Below, piece by piece: positions 14,703 to 22,383 of a DNA stretch of 42,289 nt; position 1 is the stretch's first letter, and every line of letters starts with the position of its first letter. This DNA is from Trueperaceae bacterium (GTDB lineage Bacteria > Deinococcota > Deinococci > Deinococcales > Trueperaceae). The DNA is taken from positions 1 through 42,289 of the forward strand of contig REEJ01000155.1 of assembly GCA_007695125.1 (NCBI GenBank), given 5' to 3'. Both the position numbers and the translations under genes were made by a program. The notes below the pieces were generated by a model, which was given only the letters and a program-made list of their open reading frames with translations, had not been told where the DNA came from and ran no database searches.

Positions 14703-15968
14703 GTGAGCCGACCACAGCGCCTCGCGTTCTGGACCCTGTGCGGCGCGATGGGTCTGGTGACGCTGACGCTCGCGACGGTCGCCACGGCGGTGCCGTTGTA
14801 CGCCGTGGCGCTCGGCCTCGACGCCGCCACCGTCGGCCTCCTGGTGGCGCTCCCGAACGTGTTCCCCGTGCTCCTCGCGGTGCCCGCCGGCCGAGCCGTC
14901 GACGGGAAGGGGGCGCTGCGCTGGATGCTGGTCGGGAGCCTCGGTCTGGTGAGCGCTCCGCTGATCGTCGCCACGGTCGGCGGTACCGGCGCGCTGGTGG
15001 CCAGCCAGCTGCTGCTCGGGCTGTTCCACGTGTTCCTGACGCTGGCCTCGCAGGCGTTCGTGGCGGCGCTCGGCACGCGAGCGAGCTTCGAGCGCGACTT
15101 CGCGTGGTACTCCACCTCGCTCGCAGCCGGGCGGCTCGGTGGGCCGCTGCTGGCAGGGGTGATGATCGACGCCGCCGGGTTCCGGCCGGCGTTCGCGGTC
15201 GTGACCGGCGCCCTGGTGATCAGCACGGTCCTGGTCGCGACGTTGCGACGGTGGCGACCCGAGCCTGACACGACCGTGGCCACGCCACGCCAGGCCCGCG
15301 ACGAGGCGGCGGCCGGCAGCCCGCCCACCGACGCTCCACGGCCCACCGCCGCTCCGCCGCCCGCCGGCTCGCGCGCGTTGCTCGGCAACGTCGGGCTCCA
15401 GCTGGCGGTGCTGTCGAGCGCCGGGGTGTTCGTCGCCATCGCGGTCAGGCAGGCGTTCCTGCCCGTGTACCTGAGCGAGCTGTCGTACAGCGCCACCAGC
15501 ATCGGCGCGCTCCTGAGCCTCGGTGGGCTGGCCGCCGTGCTGGTGCGGCCGATCATGCCGCTGCTGTCGCGCACGATGGGCGGTCCGGCGCGAACGCTCG
15601 TGGTCGCCATGTCGGCCGTCGCGATCGGCGTGGGGCTGACGGGGCTCGTCTCCTCGTACGGCGTCATCGCGCTGCTCACCGTGACCGCCGGCCTCGGCGC
15701 AGGCGTCGGCTTGCCGCTGTCGATCGTGACCGTGGCGTCGCACGTCGATCCGCGCAGCCGCGGCCTGGCCCTCGGGATCCGGCTCTCGCTCAACCGGGTG
15801 GCGCAACTGGTCGCACCCGTCGCCATCGGTGCGGTGGTGGCGGCATCGGGCTTCGCGCTCGGCTTCGCCCTCGCCGGCGGCGCGTTGGCCGCCCTGGCGC
15901 TCCTGGCGGCGGCGCGGGTCGGAGCGTTCGAGGCTGCCGCGTTGGACGGTGAGCGACCGATGCCATAG
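14703..15968 (+). CDS. Major facilitator superfamily transporter
   Basis: Membrane transporter of 421 aa with about 12 hydrophobic helices in two six-helix halves, joined by a hydrophilic Pro/Ala-rich loop (about 190-225). The loop between helices 2 and 3 (AGRAVDGKGALRW) is the MFS signature region. The class resembles drug or small-metabolite exporters, but the substrate cannot be read. The GTG start is set by the leaderless promoter. The TAG stop is also the first half of a TAGCAT -10-like box before the SMR remnant. The divergent small zinc-ribbon gene may be unrelated. Confidence 0.85.
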   Translation: MSRPQRLAFWTLCGAMGLVTLTLATVATAVPLYAVALGLDAATVGLLVALPNVFPVLLAVPAGRAVDGKGALRWMLVGSLGLVSAPLIVATVGGTGALVASQLLLGLFHVFLTLASQAFVAALGTRASFERDFAWYSTSLAAGRLGGPLLAGVMIDAAGFRPAFAVVTGALVISTVLVATLRRWRPEPDTTVATPRQARDEAAAGSPPTDAPRPTAAPPPAGSRALLGNVGLQLAVLSSAGVFVAIAVRQAFLPVYLSELSYSATSIGALLSLGGLAAVLVRPIMPLLSRTMGGPARTLVVAMSAVAIGVGLTGLVSSYGVIALLTVTAGLGAGVGLPLSIVTVASHVDPRSRGLALGIRLSLNRVAQLVAPVAIGAVVAASGFALGFALAGGALAALALLAAARVGAFEAAALDGERPMP

Positions 15969-15971
15969 CAT
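15966..15971 (+). promoter_or_regulatory. Putative -10 element (TAGCAT) overlapping the MFS stop codon
   Basis: The TAG stop of the MFS gene is the first half of TAGCAT. Eight bases follow before the ATG at 15980. It would drive the short SMR-like frame and the glycosidase gene. Confidence 0.45.
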
Positions 15972-15979
15972 GGTTGGCC

Positions 15980-16063
15980 ATGGCATGGACGCTGCTGATC
16001 ATCGCCGCGCTCTTCGAGGCGGCGTGGGCCGTCGGCCTGCGGCTGAGCGGCGGGACGCTGTGA
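15980..16063 (+). pseudogene. Truncated SMR-family (SugE/Gdx-type) transporter remnant, 27 codons
   Basis: A short frame absent from the ORF track encodes MAWTLLIIAALFEAAWAVGL followed by RLSGGTL and a stop. This is the first transmembrane helix of a small multidrug resistance protein of the SugE/Gdx type, including the essential proton- and substrate-coupling glutamate (E13) and the start of the next loop (SGG.T). Everything after about residue 26 of a normally about 105-residue protein is missing. The TGA stop overlaps the GTG of the large glycosidase gene (GTGA). It looks like a deletion that joined the head of an SMR gene to the next gene. It could still be translated and act as a coupling leader peptide. 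Confidence 0.7.
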
Positions 16064-18525
16064 CCGCCCGCACCGTTCGGCGCGACGACGACGCGAGCCG
16101 CGCGCTGGCGGCGTGGTCGCGCGACGTCGAACGCGTCGGCGGAACGGCTCCGATCGACGCCTTCGTCGCCGCACGCGCACGAGCGCGGCGGCTCGGTGCC
16201 CACGTGGTGCACGACGCAGTCGGCGAGCGTGTCGAGTTCGGCTTCTGGGCGCACGATCTGGACGACCGGCGCGTGCCGGACGAGCGCGTGCGGCTCGAAC
16301 TCCACATCCCGCAGGGCGCGGTCGATCCGTCGGCACCGCCGTCGCTCGCGCGCTTCACCCGCGTGCGACTGCCGCTCGAGCGCGACGGCGGCTTCTTCTG
16401 GGTGGCCGTGCGGGGCGTGCCGATCGGCACGCGCTCGCGCCTGGGCGCCCTCTACGCGTTGGCCTACGCCGACGAGCACGGCACCTGGACGACCCGGCCG
16501 GACCCGCTCGGCGCGTCGTACCCGTTCGGCGCCTTCGCGCCGGCCGAGGTCTACGATGTCGCCGCGATGCACGAGGGGCGCGCCGACCTGGGCACCTTCG
16601 AGAGCCTGGCGGCGGGCCCGCAGGCGACGGCAGGCGACGCCGTACCGCGCTTCCCGGCGCCGACCAACGTGCTCCAGCTCCACGTCGCCAGCGCCACGAA
16701 GGGGGGCACCATCGCCGACCTCACGCGCGTGGTGCGGCGCGTGGCCGAGAAGGTCGTCGCCGGCGCCGAGCTCACGCCCTTCGAGCGCTGCTTCAGCGAG
16801 TACGACGCCGTCCAGCCGCTGCCGCTCGAGCCGACGATCGAGCGCGAGGCCGGTCAGCGGCCGTGGTCGCCCCTGGCCGGGCGCGGCGTCGCGGTCGACG
16901 CCGACGCCGACACCGGGGTCGAGGTCGACGTGGCGCTGCGTCGGCCCGACGTTCGCGACTGGGGGTACGACGTCGCGTTCGTCGGCATGGGAGCGACCAA
17001 CCCCGCCCTGCTCGCGAGTGGGCGGCCCGACGAACTGGTCGACCTGGCGGTCGCGCTGCACACCTTCCCGGTCCGGCCGATGATGCTGATCCTCGACCTG
17101 GTGTACGGCCACGCCGACGACCAGTCGCTCTCGATCCTCGCGCCGGCGTTCTTCCGGGGTCCGAACATGTACGGCCAGGACGTGAACCAACAGCACCCGG
17201 TGGTGCGCGCGATCATGCTCGAGTTGCAGCGCCGGCGCGTGAACGTGGGAGCCGACGGCATCCGCGTCGACGGCGCCCAGGACCTCAAGACGTTCGATCC
17301 CGTGAGCGGCACGCTGGCGCACGACGACGACTACCTGCTCGAGATGGGTGAGCTCGTCCAGGAGGTCGGGGGCGTGCGCTACCGCCCGTTCTGCATCTTC
17401 GAGGACGGCCGGCCCTGGCCGCGCGAGGACTGGCCCACCGCCAGCACGTATCGGGAGGTCACCGAGCGCCAACCGCACGCCTACCAGTGGGGTCCGCTGA
17501 CCTTCGCCCACAACACCCCGGCGCTGCGCGGTTTCTGGTGGGACCGCTGGTGGCGGGTGGAGGAGATCCTCGCGATCGGCGACCGCTGGGTGTCGGGCTG
17601 CGCCAACCACGACACCGTGCGCCGCGGCACGCAGCTCGATCCGGCCGGGCCGATCAACCACCGCCTCGGCGATACGCTGCCCGACGTCTTGCGGCGGGCG
17701 TACGACCACCCGGCGGGGACGCTCTTGACGTACGTCGCCTTCCCAGGCCTGCCGATGGACTTCCTCAACGCCGTCGCGCGCGCGCCGTGGGGCTTCGTCC
17801 GCGATACCGACGACCGTTACGCGGTGAAGGTCGCCGCCGAGGAGGCCGGCTTCCTCGCGTGGCAGGTGACGCCCGAGGGCTTCGCGGCCGCCGACGCCTT
17901 CGTGCACCTGAAGGCGCTCGGGTTCGACGACCTGGCCGCGCTTCGGCGCGCCTTCCGGGCGCTCGAGGCCGAGGTCGCCGGCGGTGCCGATCTGATGGCG
18001 GTGGCCGGGCGCGTCGCCCCGCTGCTCCCCGCCGCGCTCGGCGAGCGCCCCGGCGTCGACGACCTCAAGCGCGTCGCCGCCGCCTTCATGGCCGACGCCG
18101 CCGCGTGGTGCAACGTCGAGCGGCACGCCGCGCGCATCGACGCGACGGCCGCGACGTTCGCGGCGCGCGTGCGGGCGCTCCGGCGGTCGCGGCCGTGGCT
18201 GGCCGCGGCGCTGCGGGCCGGCGAGTCGTGCCGGCTGCACGACCCACCACCGCCGGATCACCGACCGGGCAGGGTCGATGCCGCCAGCGAGGCACTGCGC
18301 CCCGCCAGCACCCGTGTCGACGCGCTCAGGATCGCCCCGGCGGGCGGCGAGCGGCTGTGGCTCGTCGCCAACCTCGAGGGCGAGGCGATCGACGTCGACC
18401 TCGGCGCGGCTCCCGAGGGCGGGCCCTGGCGCGTGCTGCTCGCCTCGCCCGGGGCCGTCGTCGACGAGACGATCACGAGCGCGCGACTGCCCGACGGGGA
18501 AGGCGTGGTCCTGGTCGCGGGCTGA
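16060..18525 (+). CDS. GH13-like glycoside hydrolase, probable glucosylglycerol hydrolase (GghA-like)
   Basis: Large cytoplasmic enzyme of 821 aa with the signature blocks of an alpha-amylase-type barrel: LDLVYGHADDQ (region I), NVGADGIRVDGAQD with likely nucleophile D404 (region II), FCIFEDGRPW with likely acid E448 (region III), and CANHDTVRRGTQ with D518 (region IV). GPNMYGQDVNQQHPVVRA and the overall length recall the cyanobacterial glucosylglycerol hydrolase (Slr1670 type), which breaks down this osmolyte to glucose and glycerol. The C-terminal about 80 residues look like a beta-sandwich. The GTG start at 16060 overlaps the SMR remnant stop. The N-terminal region (1-60) may have been affected by the same rearrangement. 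Another clan GH-H hydrolase or phosphorylase is possible. Confidence 0.65.
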   Translation: MTARTVRRDDDASRALAAWSRDVERVGGTAPIDAFVAARARARRLGAHVVHDAVGERVEFGFWAHDLDDRRVPDERVRLELHIPQGAVDPSAPPSLARFTRVRLPLERDGGFFWVAVRGVPIGTRSRLGALYALAYADEHGTWTTRPDPLGASYPFGAFAPAEVYDVAAMHEGRADLGTFESLAAGPQATAGDAVPRFPAPTNVLQLHVASATKGGTIADLTRVVRRVAEKVVAGAELTPFERCFSEYDAVQPLPLEPTIEREAGQRPWSPLAGRGVAVDADADTGVEVDVALRRPDVRDWGYDVAFVGMGATNPALLASGRPDELVDLAVALHTFPVRPMMLILDLVYGHADDQSLSILAPAFFRGPNMYGQDVNQQHPVVRAIMLELQRRRVNVGADGIRVDGAQDLKTFDPVSGTLAHDDDYLLEMGELVQEVGGVRYRPFCIFEDGRPWPREDWPTASTYREVTERQPHAYQWGPLTFAHNTPALRGFWWDRWWRVEEILAIGDRWVSGCANHDTVRRGTQLDPAGPINHRLGDTLPDVLRRAYDHPAGTLLTYVAFPGLPMDFLNAVARAPWGFVRDTDDRYAVKVAAEEAGFLAWQVTPEGFAAADAFVHLKALGFDDLAALRRAFRALEAEVAGGADLMAVAGRVAPLLPAALGERPGVDDLKRVAAAFMADAAAWCNVERHAARIDATAATFAARVRALRRSRPWLAAALRAGESCRLHDPPPPDHRPGRVDAASEALRPASTRVDALRIAPAGGERLWLVANLEGEAIDVDLGAAPEGGPWRVLLASPGAVVDETITSARLPDGEGVVLVAG

Positions 18526-18654
18526 GCGCGACGCGGTGCCCCCGCGCTCCGTCCGCACCCGGATCGTTTCGCGGTCGGGCGGTCGGATCGCCGGGTACAC
18601 ACGTCCCGAACGGCTGTCGGAGAAGGGCCGACGCGTGTAGTAGGCCCCGAGACC

Positions 18655-18660
18655 TACGCT
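18655..18660 (+). promoter_or_regulatory. Putative -10 of the nifJ operon (TACGCT)
   Basis: TACGCT lies in the 231-bp gap before nifJ, with a start near 18667 and a leader of about 90 nt. Upstream of it the gap holds only a weak 5-bp hairpin (GTCGG 18616-18620 / CCGAC 18628-18632). Confidence 0.45.
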
Positions 18661-18674
18661 AGAGACACGCTGTA

Positions 18675-18733
18675 CGGGTCGCGCGGCGTGCGCACCCGGC
18701 GCCCTCTCGGGCGCGCGCACGCCCCGCGACCCG
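18675..18733 (+). other. Long stem-loop in the nifJ leader
   Basis: CGGGTCGCG (18675-18683) pairs with CGCGACCCG (18725-18733). After one C/C mismatch, GGCGTGCGC (18685-18693) pairs with GCGCACGCC (18715-18723). Inside is a third stem GCGCCC / GGGCGC (18699-18714) with loop TCTC. That is 24 base pairs with one mismatch and one 5-nt bulge, filling most of the leader. Confidence 0.75.
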
Positions 18734-18744
18734 GCCTTGGCCGG
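18731..18744 (+). other. CTTG-loop hairpin abutting the nifJ ribosome-binding site
   Basis: CCGGC / GCCGG with the loop CTTG, a known class of stable RNA tetraloop. Its first three bases also belong to the long stem upstream, so the two structures compete slightly. AAGGGG follows at once and then the ATG at 18757. Confidence 0.5.
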
Positions 18745-18756
18745 AAGGGGTCCAGC

Positions 18757-21700
18757 ATGGCAACACGCCGCACCGTCGTCGACGGGAACGAGGCAGCCGC
18801 ACGCATCGCCCACCTGACGAACGAGGTGATCGCGATCTACCCGATCACCCCCGCTTCGTCGATGGGAGAGCTCTCCGATGCGTGGTCGTCGGCAGGCCGC
18901 AAGAACCTGTGGGGCGTCGTCCCCGAGGTGATCGAGATGCAGAGCGAGGGCGGCGCCGCCGGCGCCGTGCACGGCGCGCTGCAATCGGGCTCGCTGACCA
19001 CCACGTTCACCGCCTCGCAGGGGTTGCTCCTCAAGTACCCCAACATGTTCAAGATCGCCGGCGAGCTCACGCCCGCGGTGTTCCACATCGCGGCGCGCGC
19101 ACTCGCGACGCACGCGCTGTCGATCTTCGGCGACCACTCCGACGTGATGTCGGTCCGCTCCGCCGGCTGGGCGATGCTGTTCTCGAACTCGCCGCAGGAG
19201 GCGCAGGACATGGCGGCGATCGCGCAGATGGCCACGCTGGCCACGCGCGTCCCCTTCCTGCACGTCTTCGACGGCTTCCGCACCAGCCACGAGGTCAACG
19301 TGGTCGAGCTGCTCGAAGAGGACGTGCTGCGTGGCCTGATCGACGAGGACCTGATCCGCGCCCACCGCGAGCGTTCTCTCAGCCCCGAACGCCCGCTGAT
19401 CCGCGGCACGGCCCAGAACCCCGACGTGTTCTTCCAGGCGCGCGAGGCCGCCAACCCGTTCTACGCGGCGGTGCCCGCCGCCGTGCAGCGCGCGATGCGC
19501 CGTTTCGAAGAGGCCACCGGGCGCGCCTACCACCCCTTCGAGTACCACGGAGCGCCTGACGCCGAGCGCGTGCTCGTGCTGATGGGCTCGGGTGTCGGTG
19601 CGGCGAAGGAGGCGGTCGCCACGCTCGCAGCCGCCGGCGAGAAGGTCGGCGTGCTGACCGTCCGCCTGTTCCGCCCGTTCGACGTCGAAGCGATGCTCGC
19701 CGAGCTGCCCGCGACCGTCACCGGCATCGCGGTGCTCGATCGCGTCAAGGAGCCCGGCTCCGTCGGCGAGCCGCTCTACCAGGACATCGTCGTCAGCGCC
19801 GCGCGCTCCTGGCCCAGCGACCGAGCGCGCCCCGTCGTCATCGGCGGCCGCTACGGCCTCGCCTCGAAGGAGTTCACGCCCGCCATGGCGAAGGCTGCGC
19901 TCGACGAGCTGCAGGCCGACGTCCCTCTGCAGGGCTTCACCCTCGGCATCGTCGACGACGTCAGCCACACCAGCCTCAAGCACGACCCCAGCTTCGTCAC
20001 CGAGCACCCCGACATCCGCCGGGCCGTCTTCTACGGCCTCGGCAGCGACGGGACGGTCGGCGCGACGCGCAACACCGTCAAGATCATCGGCGAGCAGACC
20101 GACCTCTTCGCCCAGGGCTACTTCGTCTTCGACTCGAAGAAGGCCGGCGCCGTCACGGTGTCGCACCTGCGCTTCGGCCCCGAGAAGATCGATTCCACGT
20201 ACCTGATCGGCGAGGCGGACTTCGTCGGCGTCCACCAGTTCGAGTTCCTCGAGAAGTTCGACGTGCTCGGCCTCGCAGGCCGCGGCGCGACCATCCTCAT
20301 CAACAGCCCGTACGGCCCCGACGAGGTCTGGGACCACCTGCCCTTCGAGGTGCAAGAGCGGCTGATCGAGGTGGACGCCAAGGTCTTCGTGGTCGACGCC
20401 CTCACCGTGGCCCGCGAGGCGGGCTTGGCGGGGCGCATCAACACCGTGATGCAGGCGTGCTACTTCGCCCTCTCCGGTGTGTTGCCCAAGGACGAGGCGA
20501 TCGCGCAGATCAAGGAGTCCATCGATCGCAGCTACGGCAAGCGCGGCCGCTCGGTGCTCGAGCGCAACTACGCCGCCGTCGACGCGTCGCTGGCCGGCCT
20601 CCACGAGGTCACCATCCCCAGCGAGGTGACGGCGACCACGCGGCTGCGTCCGGCCGTGCCCGAGTACGCGCCCGACTTCGTGCAGCGCATCACGGCCCGC
20701 ATCATCGAAGGCCAAGGCGACCTGCTCCCGGTCTCGGCGCTGCCCGTCGACGGCACCTTCCCGACCGCGACCAGCCAGTTCGAACGCCGCTCCATCGCGG
20801 TCGAGGTCCCGATCTGGGACCCGGAGATCTGCACCCAGTGCGCGCTGTGCGCGATCGTCTGCCCGCACGCCTCGATCCGCGTGAACGCCTACGACCCGGC
20901 CCTGCTCGACGACGCCCCCGAGGGCTTCAAGTCGGTGCCGTACAAGAGCAAGAACCCCGCCACCGCCGGCTTCGCGTTCACGGTCCAGCTCGCGCCGGAC
21001 GACTGCACCGGCTGCGGCGTCTGCGTCGACGTGTGCCCGGCGCGCTCCAAGACCGAGGTCAAGCACAAGGCCATCAACATGGAGCCCAAGGTCGACCACC
21101 TCGAGGTCGAGCGCGAGACGTGGGACTTCTACCGCACCATCCCCGAGCCGCGGCCCGACTGGGGCAGCGAGACGCCGATCAAGGCCTCGCAGCTGCGCCA
21201 GCCGCTGTTCGAGTTCTCGGGCGCCTGCGCGGGCTGCGGTGAGACCCCGTACATCAAGCTCGTCACCCAGATGTTCGGCGACCGCATGGTCATCGCCAAC
21301 GCGACCGGCTGCTCATCGATCTACGGAGGCAACCTGCCGACCACGCCCTACGCGCAAGACGCAGCGGGCCGTGGTCCCGCCTGGTCGAACTCGCTCTTCG
21401 AGGACAACGCCGAGTTCGGTCTCGGCATGCGCCTGGCGGTCGACGCCCAGCGCGACCTCGCCGTCCACACGCTCGAGACCCTGCGCGGCACGCTCGGCGA
21501 CGAGATCGTCGACGCGCTGATCGCCGGAGCCGAGGGCGAGGCCGGCGACGACGCCGCCGTGGCGTCGCAGCGCGAGCGCATCGCCGCGCTCCGCACCACC
21601 CTCGAGGGTCTGTACGGCGGCGCGCAGGAGGCCGACGCGCGCCGACTCGACGACGTGGCCGACGCGCTCGTCCCGCGCTCGGTCTGGATCATCGGCGGCG

Positions 21701-22383
21701 ACGGCTGGGCGTACGACATCGGTTCGTCCGGTCTCGACCACGTGCTGGCCTCGGGACGCGACGTCAACATCCTGGTGCTCGACACCGAGGTGTACAGCAA
21801 CACCGGCGGCCAGGCCTCGAAGTCGACCCCGCGCGCCGCGATCGCCAAGTTCGCCGCAGCCGGCAAGTCGATCGGCAAGAAGGACCTCGGCATGGTCGCG
21901 ATGGCGTACGGCAACGTCTACGTCGGACAGATCGCGATCGGCGCGAACCCCTCGCAGACGATCAAGACGCTGCGCGAGGCCGCCGCGTGGCCGGGGCCGT
22001 CACTCGTCATCGCCTACAGCCACTGCATCGCCCACGGCATCGACATGACCACCGCCTTCAGCCACCAACGCGACGTCGTGAAGAGCGGTATCTGGCCGCT
22101 GTTCCGCTTCGACCCGCGCCTCGCCACCGGCGAGAGCGGCACGCCGATGCAGCTCGATTCGCGCAAGCCGACCGTCCCCTTCTCGACCATCGCCCAGAAG
22201 GAGGGCCGCTACGCGATGCTCACGCGCGCCCACCCGGAGCGTGCCGAGCACCTCTTCCAGCTCGCTCAGGCCGACATCGACGCCCGTTGGGAGCTCTACG
22301 AGCAACTCGCCGGGATGCACCGCAGCGCCCCCATCAGCGCGGACGCCGCATTGAACGCAACCAGCACGACCGAGGAGGGCTGA
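18757..22383 (+). CDS. nifJ: Pyruvate:ferredoxin (flavodoxin) oxidoreductase
   Basis: Single-chain homodimeric-type enzyme of 1208 aa that converts pyruvate and CoA to acetyl-CoA, CO2 and reduced ferredoxin. Domains run in the normal order. The N-terminal pyrimidine-binding domain has YPITPASSMGE. A transketolase-C-like domain follows (about 260-410, VLVLMGSGVGAAKEAV). The gamma and EKR region has FGPEKIDSTYLIGEADFVG. A two-cluster ferredoxin domain has CTQCALCAIVCP from C692 and CTGCGVCVDVCP from C750. The C-terminal ThDP domain has CAGCGETPY from C824 and GDGWAYDIG near 981. All cluster cysteines are present. The start at 18757 has AAGGGG upstream and removes a non-homologous 23-residue extension in the ORF track. 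The stop lies one base before the next gene's ATG. The oxygen sensitivity of many such enzymes suggests a microaerobic or protected role. Confidence 0.95.
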   Translation: MATRRTVVDGNEAAARIAHLTNEVIAIYPITPASSMGELSDAWSSAGRKNLWGVVPEVIEMQSEGGAAGAVHGALQSGSLTTTFTASQGLLLKYPNMFKIAGELTPAVFHIAARALATHALSIFGDHSDVMSVRSAGWAMLFSNSPQEAQDMAAIAQMATLATRVPFLHVFDGFRTSHEVNVVELLEEDVLRGLIDEDLIRAHRERSLSPERPLIRGTAQNPDVFFQAREAANPFYAAVPAAVQRAMRRFEEATGRAYHPFEYHGAPDAERVLVLMGSGVGAAKEAVATLAAAGEKVGVLTVRLFRPFDVEAMLAELPATVTGIAVLDRVKEPGSVGEPLYQDIVVSAARSWPSDRARPVVIGGRYGLASKEFTPAMAKAALDELQADVPLQGFTLGIVDDVSHTSLKHDPSFVTEHPDIRRAVFYGLGSDGTVGATRNTVKIIGEQTDLFAQGYFVFDSKKAGAVTVSHLRFGPEKIDSTYLIGEADFVGVHQFEFLEKFDVLGLAGRGATILINSPYGPDEVWDHLPFEVQERLIEVDAKVFVVDALTVAREAGLAGRINTVMQACYFALSGVLPKDEAIAQIKESIDRSYGKRGRSVLERNYAAVDASLAGLHEVTIPSEVTATTRLRPAVPEYAPDFVQRITARIIEGQGDLLPVSALPVDGTFPTATSQFERRSIAVEVPIWDPEICTQCALCAIVCPHASIRVNAYDPALLDDAPEGFKSVPYKSKNPATAGFAFTVQLAPDDCTGCGVCVDVCPARSKTEVKHKAINMEPKVDHLEVERETWDFYRTIPEPRPDWGSETPIKASQLRQPLFEFSGACAGCGETPYIKLVTQMFGDRMVIANATGCSSIYGGNLPTTPYAQDAAGRGPAWSNSLFEDNAEFGLGMRLAVDAQRDLAVHTLETLRGTLGDEIVDALIAGAEGEAGDDAAVASQRERIAALRTTLEGLYGGAQEADARRLDDVADALVPRSVWIIGGDGWAYDIGSSGLDHVLASGRDVNILVLDTEVYSNTGGQASKSTPRAAIAKFAAAGKSIGKKDLGMVAMAYGNVYVGQIAIGANPSQTIKTLREAAAWPGPSLVIAYSHCIAHGIDMTTAFSHQRDVVKSGIWPLFRFDPRLATGESGTPMQLDSRKPTVPFSTIAQKEGRYAMLTRAHPERAEHLFQLAQADIDARWELYEQLAGMHRSAPISADAALNATSTTEEG

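Follow-up and report, generated by a model that had tools for sequence, protein, structure and literature searches.

A probable gdx/sugE remnant ahead of a glycosidase gene

The window, a stretch of 42,289 nucleotides from a Trueperaceae bacterium (assembly GCA_007695125.1, contig REEJ01000155.1, positions 1 to 42,289), carries a 27-codon reading frame whose stop codon overlaps the start of a gene for a glycosidase of the GHL5 family (PF14872). The short frame runs on the forward strand from ATG 15980 to TGA 16061-16063 and encodes MAWTLLIIAALFEAAWAVGLRLSGGTL followed by the stop; GTG 16060-16062 overlaps this TGA to give GTGA (16060-16063), and the 821-aa frame that opens at the GTG runs to 18525. 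A preliminary description of this DNA had already noted the overlap, at coordinates that we confirm, and had taken the short frame for the head of a SugE/Gdx transporter gene of the SMR family. Our analysis makes it quite probable that the locus is the scar of a gdx/sugE gene: an exporter gene was gutted, a GHL5 gene was joined to it at the gdx stop codon, and the glycosidase gene took over the remnant as its 5' end. The relevant features are:

15966-15971, forward strand: TAGCAT, probable -10 box from the gdx promoter
15980-16039, forward strand: SugE/Gdx codons 1-20, transmembrane helix 1 (TM1) with Glu13 and Trp16
16024-16059, forward strand: probable N-terminal extension of the glycosidase, VGRRPAAERRDA, from GTG 16024
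16029-16039, forward strand: predicted deletion joint on the GTCGGCCT repeat
16040-16063, forward strand: apparent native SugE C-terminus, RLSGGTL, with its own stop codon
16060-18525, forward strand: GHL5-family glycosidase, from GTG 16060, the homologous start of other Trueperaceae

The proposed similarity to TM1 of an SMR protein was borne out by profile searches. The short frame matches positions 1-25 of 104 in the SugE profile (NCBIfam NF008512; E=2e-5, 24.8 bits) and positions 1-25 of 93 in Pfam PF00893 (E=0.003, 18.5 bits). Both scores lie under the curated whole-protein cut-offs (126 bits for NF008512, 23.7 bits for PF00893), as expected for a product of 27 aa. Glu13 and Trp16 are present both in the window and in G004, a genome of another species of the same genus, and codons 1-20 share 82-84% DNA identity with the heads of congeneric sugE genes. 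Like a Gdx/SugE protein, then, the short frame has the N-terminal 20 residues, the C-terminal residues and the stop, and its locus adjoins a pyruvate:ferredoxin oxidoreductase (PFOR) gene, as gdx does in congeners. In contrast to the four helices and about 105 aa of SMR proteins (about 107 aa for Gdx/SugE), it has 27 aa and lacks TM2-TM4, and also a riboswitch, a Shine-Dalgarno (SD) sequence and detectable purifying selection. In Gdx-Clo the tyrosine switch and binding-site residues Y59, S42 and W62 lie in TM2 and TM3 (PMC9574504); their equivalents are absent from the short frame, this region being deleted. A profile search of the window's own genome, a draft of 349 contigs, found no SMR (PF00893) gene at E 0.001.

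The end of the short frame also resembles SugE. The tail reads GLRLSGGTL before the stop, and its last seven codons, RLSGGTL, are similar to the SugE C-termini RLTGGVP of G006 and RLTSGVA of G002, each directly before the stop, and to RLTGG in other genera. No other heptapeptide directly before a stop in the window, of 846 compared, equals this match (BLOSUM score 19). In addition, at four of the five sites where the window and G004 tails differ, one of the two sequences retains the base of intact SugE tails; their ancestor therefore probably read VGLRLxGGTP before the stop, which is nearer to the SugE C-terminus than is the present window tail. These observations bear on a simpler history, in which gdx was severed after codon 20 by the glycosidase gene and the seven codons that follow arose by chance. 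At the DNA level the final 21 coding bases agree with the SugE tail at just 12 of 21 positions, a level reached about 2% of the time by chance and unremarkable alone, which suits that history; the unequalled protein match and the retained bases argue against it, and we consider it improbable.

Given that the tail appears to be the native SugE C-terminus, the deletion would be internal and in frame, removing 80 codons (240 bp, the difference between the 107-aa intact sugE and the 27-aa frame) that encode TM2-TM4. The best join falls at frame nucleotides 50-60, on the GTCGGCCT repeat, which in the intact sugE of G002 encodes VGL twice, once where TM1 ends and once close to the C-terminus. By this sequence comparison the short frame is a SugE gene of which the first 20 and last 7 codons are left, with its own stop kept. 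The loss of TM2-TM4 postulated in the preliminary description thus stands, but its picture of a truncated head does not.

The locus in a sister species and in congeners

The same continuous order of MFS transporter gene, short frame, glycosidase and PFOR is found in G004 (PWQI01000142.1), with 95.8% identity over 3.27 kb. The window's genome is a fragmented draft, as would suit an assembly or binning artefact that fused gdx to an unrelated gene; because the junction recurs in an independent, 4% diverged contig of another species, an assembly deletion is very unlikely, and we regard such an artefact as next to impossible.

Among six other genomes of the genus, an intact 107-aa sugE without GHL5 occurs in G002 and G006, and only G004 carries the GHL5 gene. 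The order is MFS, sugE, PFOR in G006 and sugE, PFOR in G002. A full SMR gene is therefore present at this locus in relatives, as the preliminary description had proposed to look for, but the glycosidase that was to flank it is absent there, which marks the GHL5 gene as a newcomer. In another Trueperaceae genus (G021) a GHL5 relative with 73% identity sits elsewhere, beside an aldo/keto-reductase-like frame (read from translations). On the right-hand side, 139 of 2000 shuffles scored as well as the junction when it was compared with the DNA after sugE in G006. The flanking genes are:

14703-15968, forward strand: MFS transporter gene (PF07690, E=5e-36), whose stop codon supplies the TAG of TAGCAT
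18594-22383, forward strand: PFOR upstream region and gene, conserved in congeners on the right-hand side of intact gdx

Decay of the short frame

Between the window and G004, the short frame differs by nine nonsynonymous changes and one synonymous change. Over the same comparison omega (dN/dS) is 0.084 for the MFS gene and 0.24 for the GHL5 gene, and the short frame departs from both (Fisher p=0.0003 against MFS, p=0.005 against GHL5). The G004 copy reads MAWTLLIIAGSCEAAWAVDLLPNGGTP; it gains an Asp and a Pro and has no Pfam match. As judged from these substitutions, the 27-codon frame is decaying and shows no sign of constraint as a protein, in line with the decay proposed in the preliminary description. 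That description had also offered a second fate, in which TM1 with Glu13 was kept as a selected membrane micropeptide. Glu13 and Trp16 are retained in both species and the frame is open in both; these points count for less than the excess of nonsynonymous changes, the altered sister copy and the absence of the TM2 and TM3 residues on which transport depends, and a selected micropeptide is very improbable.

The start of the glycosidase

The glycosidase matches PF14872 in full (E=3e-233) and, like other GHL5 glycosidases, is under purifying selection; its identity to homologues from cyanobacteria and Ornithinimicrobium is about 38-49%. Among the proteins searched, PF14872 glycosidases are mostly cyanobacterial, and no solved structure matched the enzyme by sequence. 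We presume that the family may include the glucosylglycerol hydrolase GghA; ggpS, the gene for glucosylglycerol-phosphate synthase, was not found in the genus genomes searched. From GTG 16060 the enzyme aligns start to start with the Trueperaceae GHL5 proteins L029 and L030, and on this alignment its N-terminus is intact; the damage to it that had been suspected is not seen.

The window enzyme differs from other members in a probable lineage-specific extension of 12 aa. Read in the glycosidase frame, all five window-G004 differences in 16024-16059 are synonymous third-position changes (probability by chance about 0.013), and over 16008-16059 eight of ten are at third positions in that frame (binomial about 0.003). 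A GAGG at 16016-16019 ends four bases before GTG 16024, with a duplex energy of -7.1 kcal/mol, which places it roughly in the top 5% among random positions. Given the synonymous-only changes, the glycosidase probably starts at GTG 16024, so that 12 codons of former gdx sequence would be overprinted in another frame. The window would also allow still earlier starts at ATG 15970 and ATG 15985; we rejected them because an in-frame TGA stands at 16015-16017 in G004.

Alternatively, the short frame could act as a translational coupler, as the preliminary description had also suggested: ribosomes would translate the leaderless 27 codons, stop at TGA 16061-16063 and re-initiate at GTG 16060 to make the glycosidase. 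In bacteria and archaea alike, an overlap of stop and start codons is known to link the translation of two genes (PMC6728339). Here the GTGA overlap and the open frame are retained in the window and in G004, TAGCAT lies in a leaderless position relative to ATG 15980, and GTG 16060, the homologous start, has no good SD (-5.5 kcal/mol, against -10.3 for the AGGAGG before the GHL5 gene of L003). These points speak for coupling, but codons 16024-16059 evolve like translated glycosidase-frame sequence, which favours a start upstream; moreover, an open frame of 27 codons in only two sequences is weak evidence, and the mRNA region is not more structured than shuffles. That folding result also led us to discard an RNA structure sequestering GTG 16060. 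Taken together, we think coupling rather unlikely, and prefer initiation at GTG 16024.

Upstream region: promoter box, riboswitch and Shine-Dalgarno sequence

TAGCAT lies 8 nt before ATG 15980. We examined ten guanidine-III aptamer cores in relatives, and found TANNNT upstream of the core in all ten, as TAGCAT in three. The same pattern occurs close to start codons in the window's own genome: in 419 kb of sampled contigs with 213 genes, TANNNT is found 5-8 nt before the candidate start of 32 genes (four spacings summed), compared to a background of about 2 per spacing, and the spacing of 8 falls within this peak. Leaderless genes with an adjacent -10 motif have been published for Deinococcus-Thermus (PMC12340547). 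The short frame shares with them a TANNNT a few bases before its ATG; it differs in that its geometry was apparently made by deletion and is set before a gene remnant.

The guanidine-III riboswitch (RF01763) precedes gdx in G002 (59.6 bits), G011 (60.3), G029 (52.6), G052 (47.4) and others, whereas no match to the RF01763 aptamer was found within the window. The window thus shares with riboswitch-controlled gdx loci a TANNNT box resembling the one before their aptamer, but lacks the aptamer and has the box directly before the ATG. The SD before gdx is strong in G006 (-9.3 kcal/mol) and G002 (-9.5), and there is none before ATG 15980 (-3.4). Compared with these loci, TAGCAT looks like the old gdx promoter box, a putative promoter moved to the start codon by deletion. 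The preliminary description had called TAGCAT promoter-like; its resemblance to the congeneric gdx promoter box agrees with this, but the history given there was incomplete, since riboswitch and SD were lost too. Codons 1-9 are identical in the window and G004, within a 42-nt identical run from 15966 (probability about 0.02 under the divergence of four-fold sites), which hints weakly at a role for the promoter and start region.

In G006 the aptamer before the intact gdx is degenerate (L009 713-776; 25.3 bits against a gathering score of 36), which suggests that guanidine control can vanish before the gene in this genus.

A PF06695 protein behind the guanidine-III riboswitch

In two genomes, the window's own (L063/L119, G000:C92:602-1128) and G001 (L062/L120, G001:C287:856-1381), the gene directly behind a guanidine-III riboswitch, which scores 41.7 and 43.4 bits respectively, encodes a protein of some 149 aa that belongs to PF06695 ('small multi-drug export'); a weaker case scores 24 bits (L121, G043:C194). 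Both genomes are without an intact gdx, the gdx-bearing G002 and G006 are without PF06695, and G003-G005 have neither; these are drafts, and the absences are soft. From this mutual exclusion within the genus, the PF06695 protein may be an alternative guanidinium exporter, a candidate proposed from gene distribution. A literature search found no paper tying PF06695 to the guanidine-III riboswitch. The place of this small membrane protein behind the riboswitch in gdx-less genomes suggests an alternative guanidine exporter that can be tested. In the window's genome the PF06695 gene is followed, about 1 kb further on, by a cyclic di-GMP-II riboswitch (L119 2167-2250, G000:C92) that scores 71.7 bits, above its gathering score.

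Proposed history and its implications

The ancestral order in the genus would have been promoter, guanidine-III riboswitch, gdx and PFOR gene. On the branch that led to the window and G004, a gene for a GHL5 glycosidase would have been joined at the gdx stop codon, TM2-TM4 (240 bp) would have dropped out in frame between the two VGL-coding repeats, and loss of the riboswitch and SD would have placed the old -10 box 8 nt upstream of the gdx start codon; the order of these events is our reconstruction. The remnant promoter would now drive transcription of the glycosidase, presumably as a leaderless transcript free of the guanidine riboswitch, and about 12 remnant codons, read in the other frame from GTG 16024, would probably form the new N-terminus of the enzyme.

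Several observations weigh against this history. The window and G004 alike still have the short frame open and the stop/start overlap in place. GTG 16024 is preceded by an SD of only moderate strength, its -7.1 kcal/mol falling beside a 5% null quantile of -7.2. In 16008-16088, 14 of 81 nucleotides differ between the window and G004 (L002), several-fold over the surrounding divergence, with a dense cluster at 16008-16015. Only a few bases tie TAGCAT to the old gdx promoter, the junction is known from two genomes only, and every substitution test rests on 10-14 differences. We advance only tentatively, as something that may well not hold in full, the larger proposal that an exporter gene under riboswitch control was turned by deletions into two parts for a new enzyme, a leaderless promoter and an overprinted N-terminal extension.

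The types of event involved are already known: gene decay, probable promoter capture and possible overprinting. Within one genus, three states can be seen: riboswitch and gdx intact (G002); riboswitch decayed with gdx intact (G006); and gdx gutted, with its promoter probably captured (window, G004). The locus is thus a legible case of regulation and protein ends changing in the course of gene replacement, and it suggests that deleting a regulated 5' leader can give rise to a leaderless promoter.

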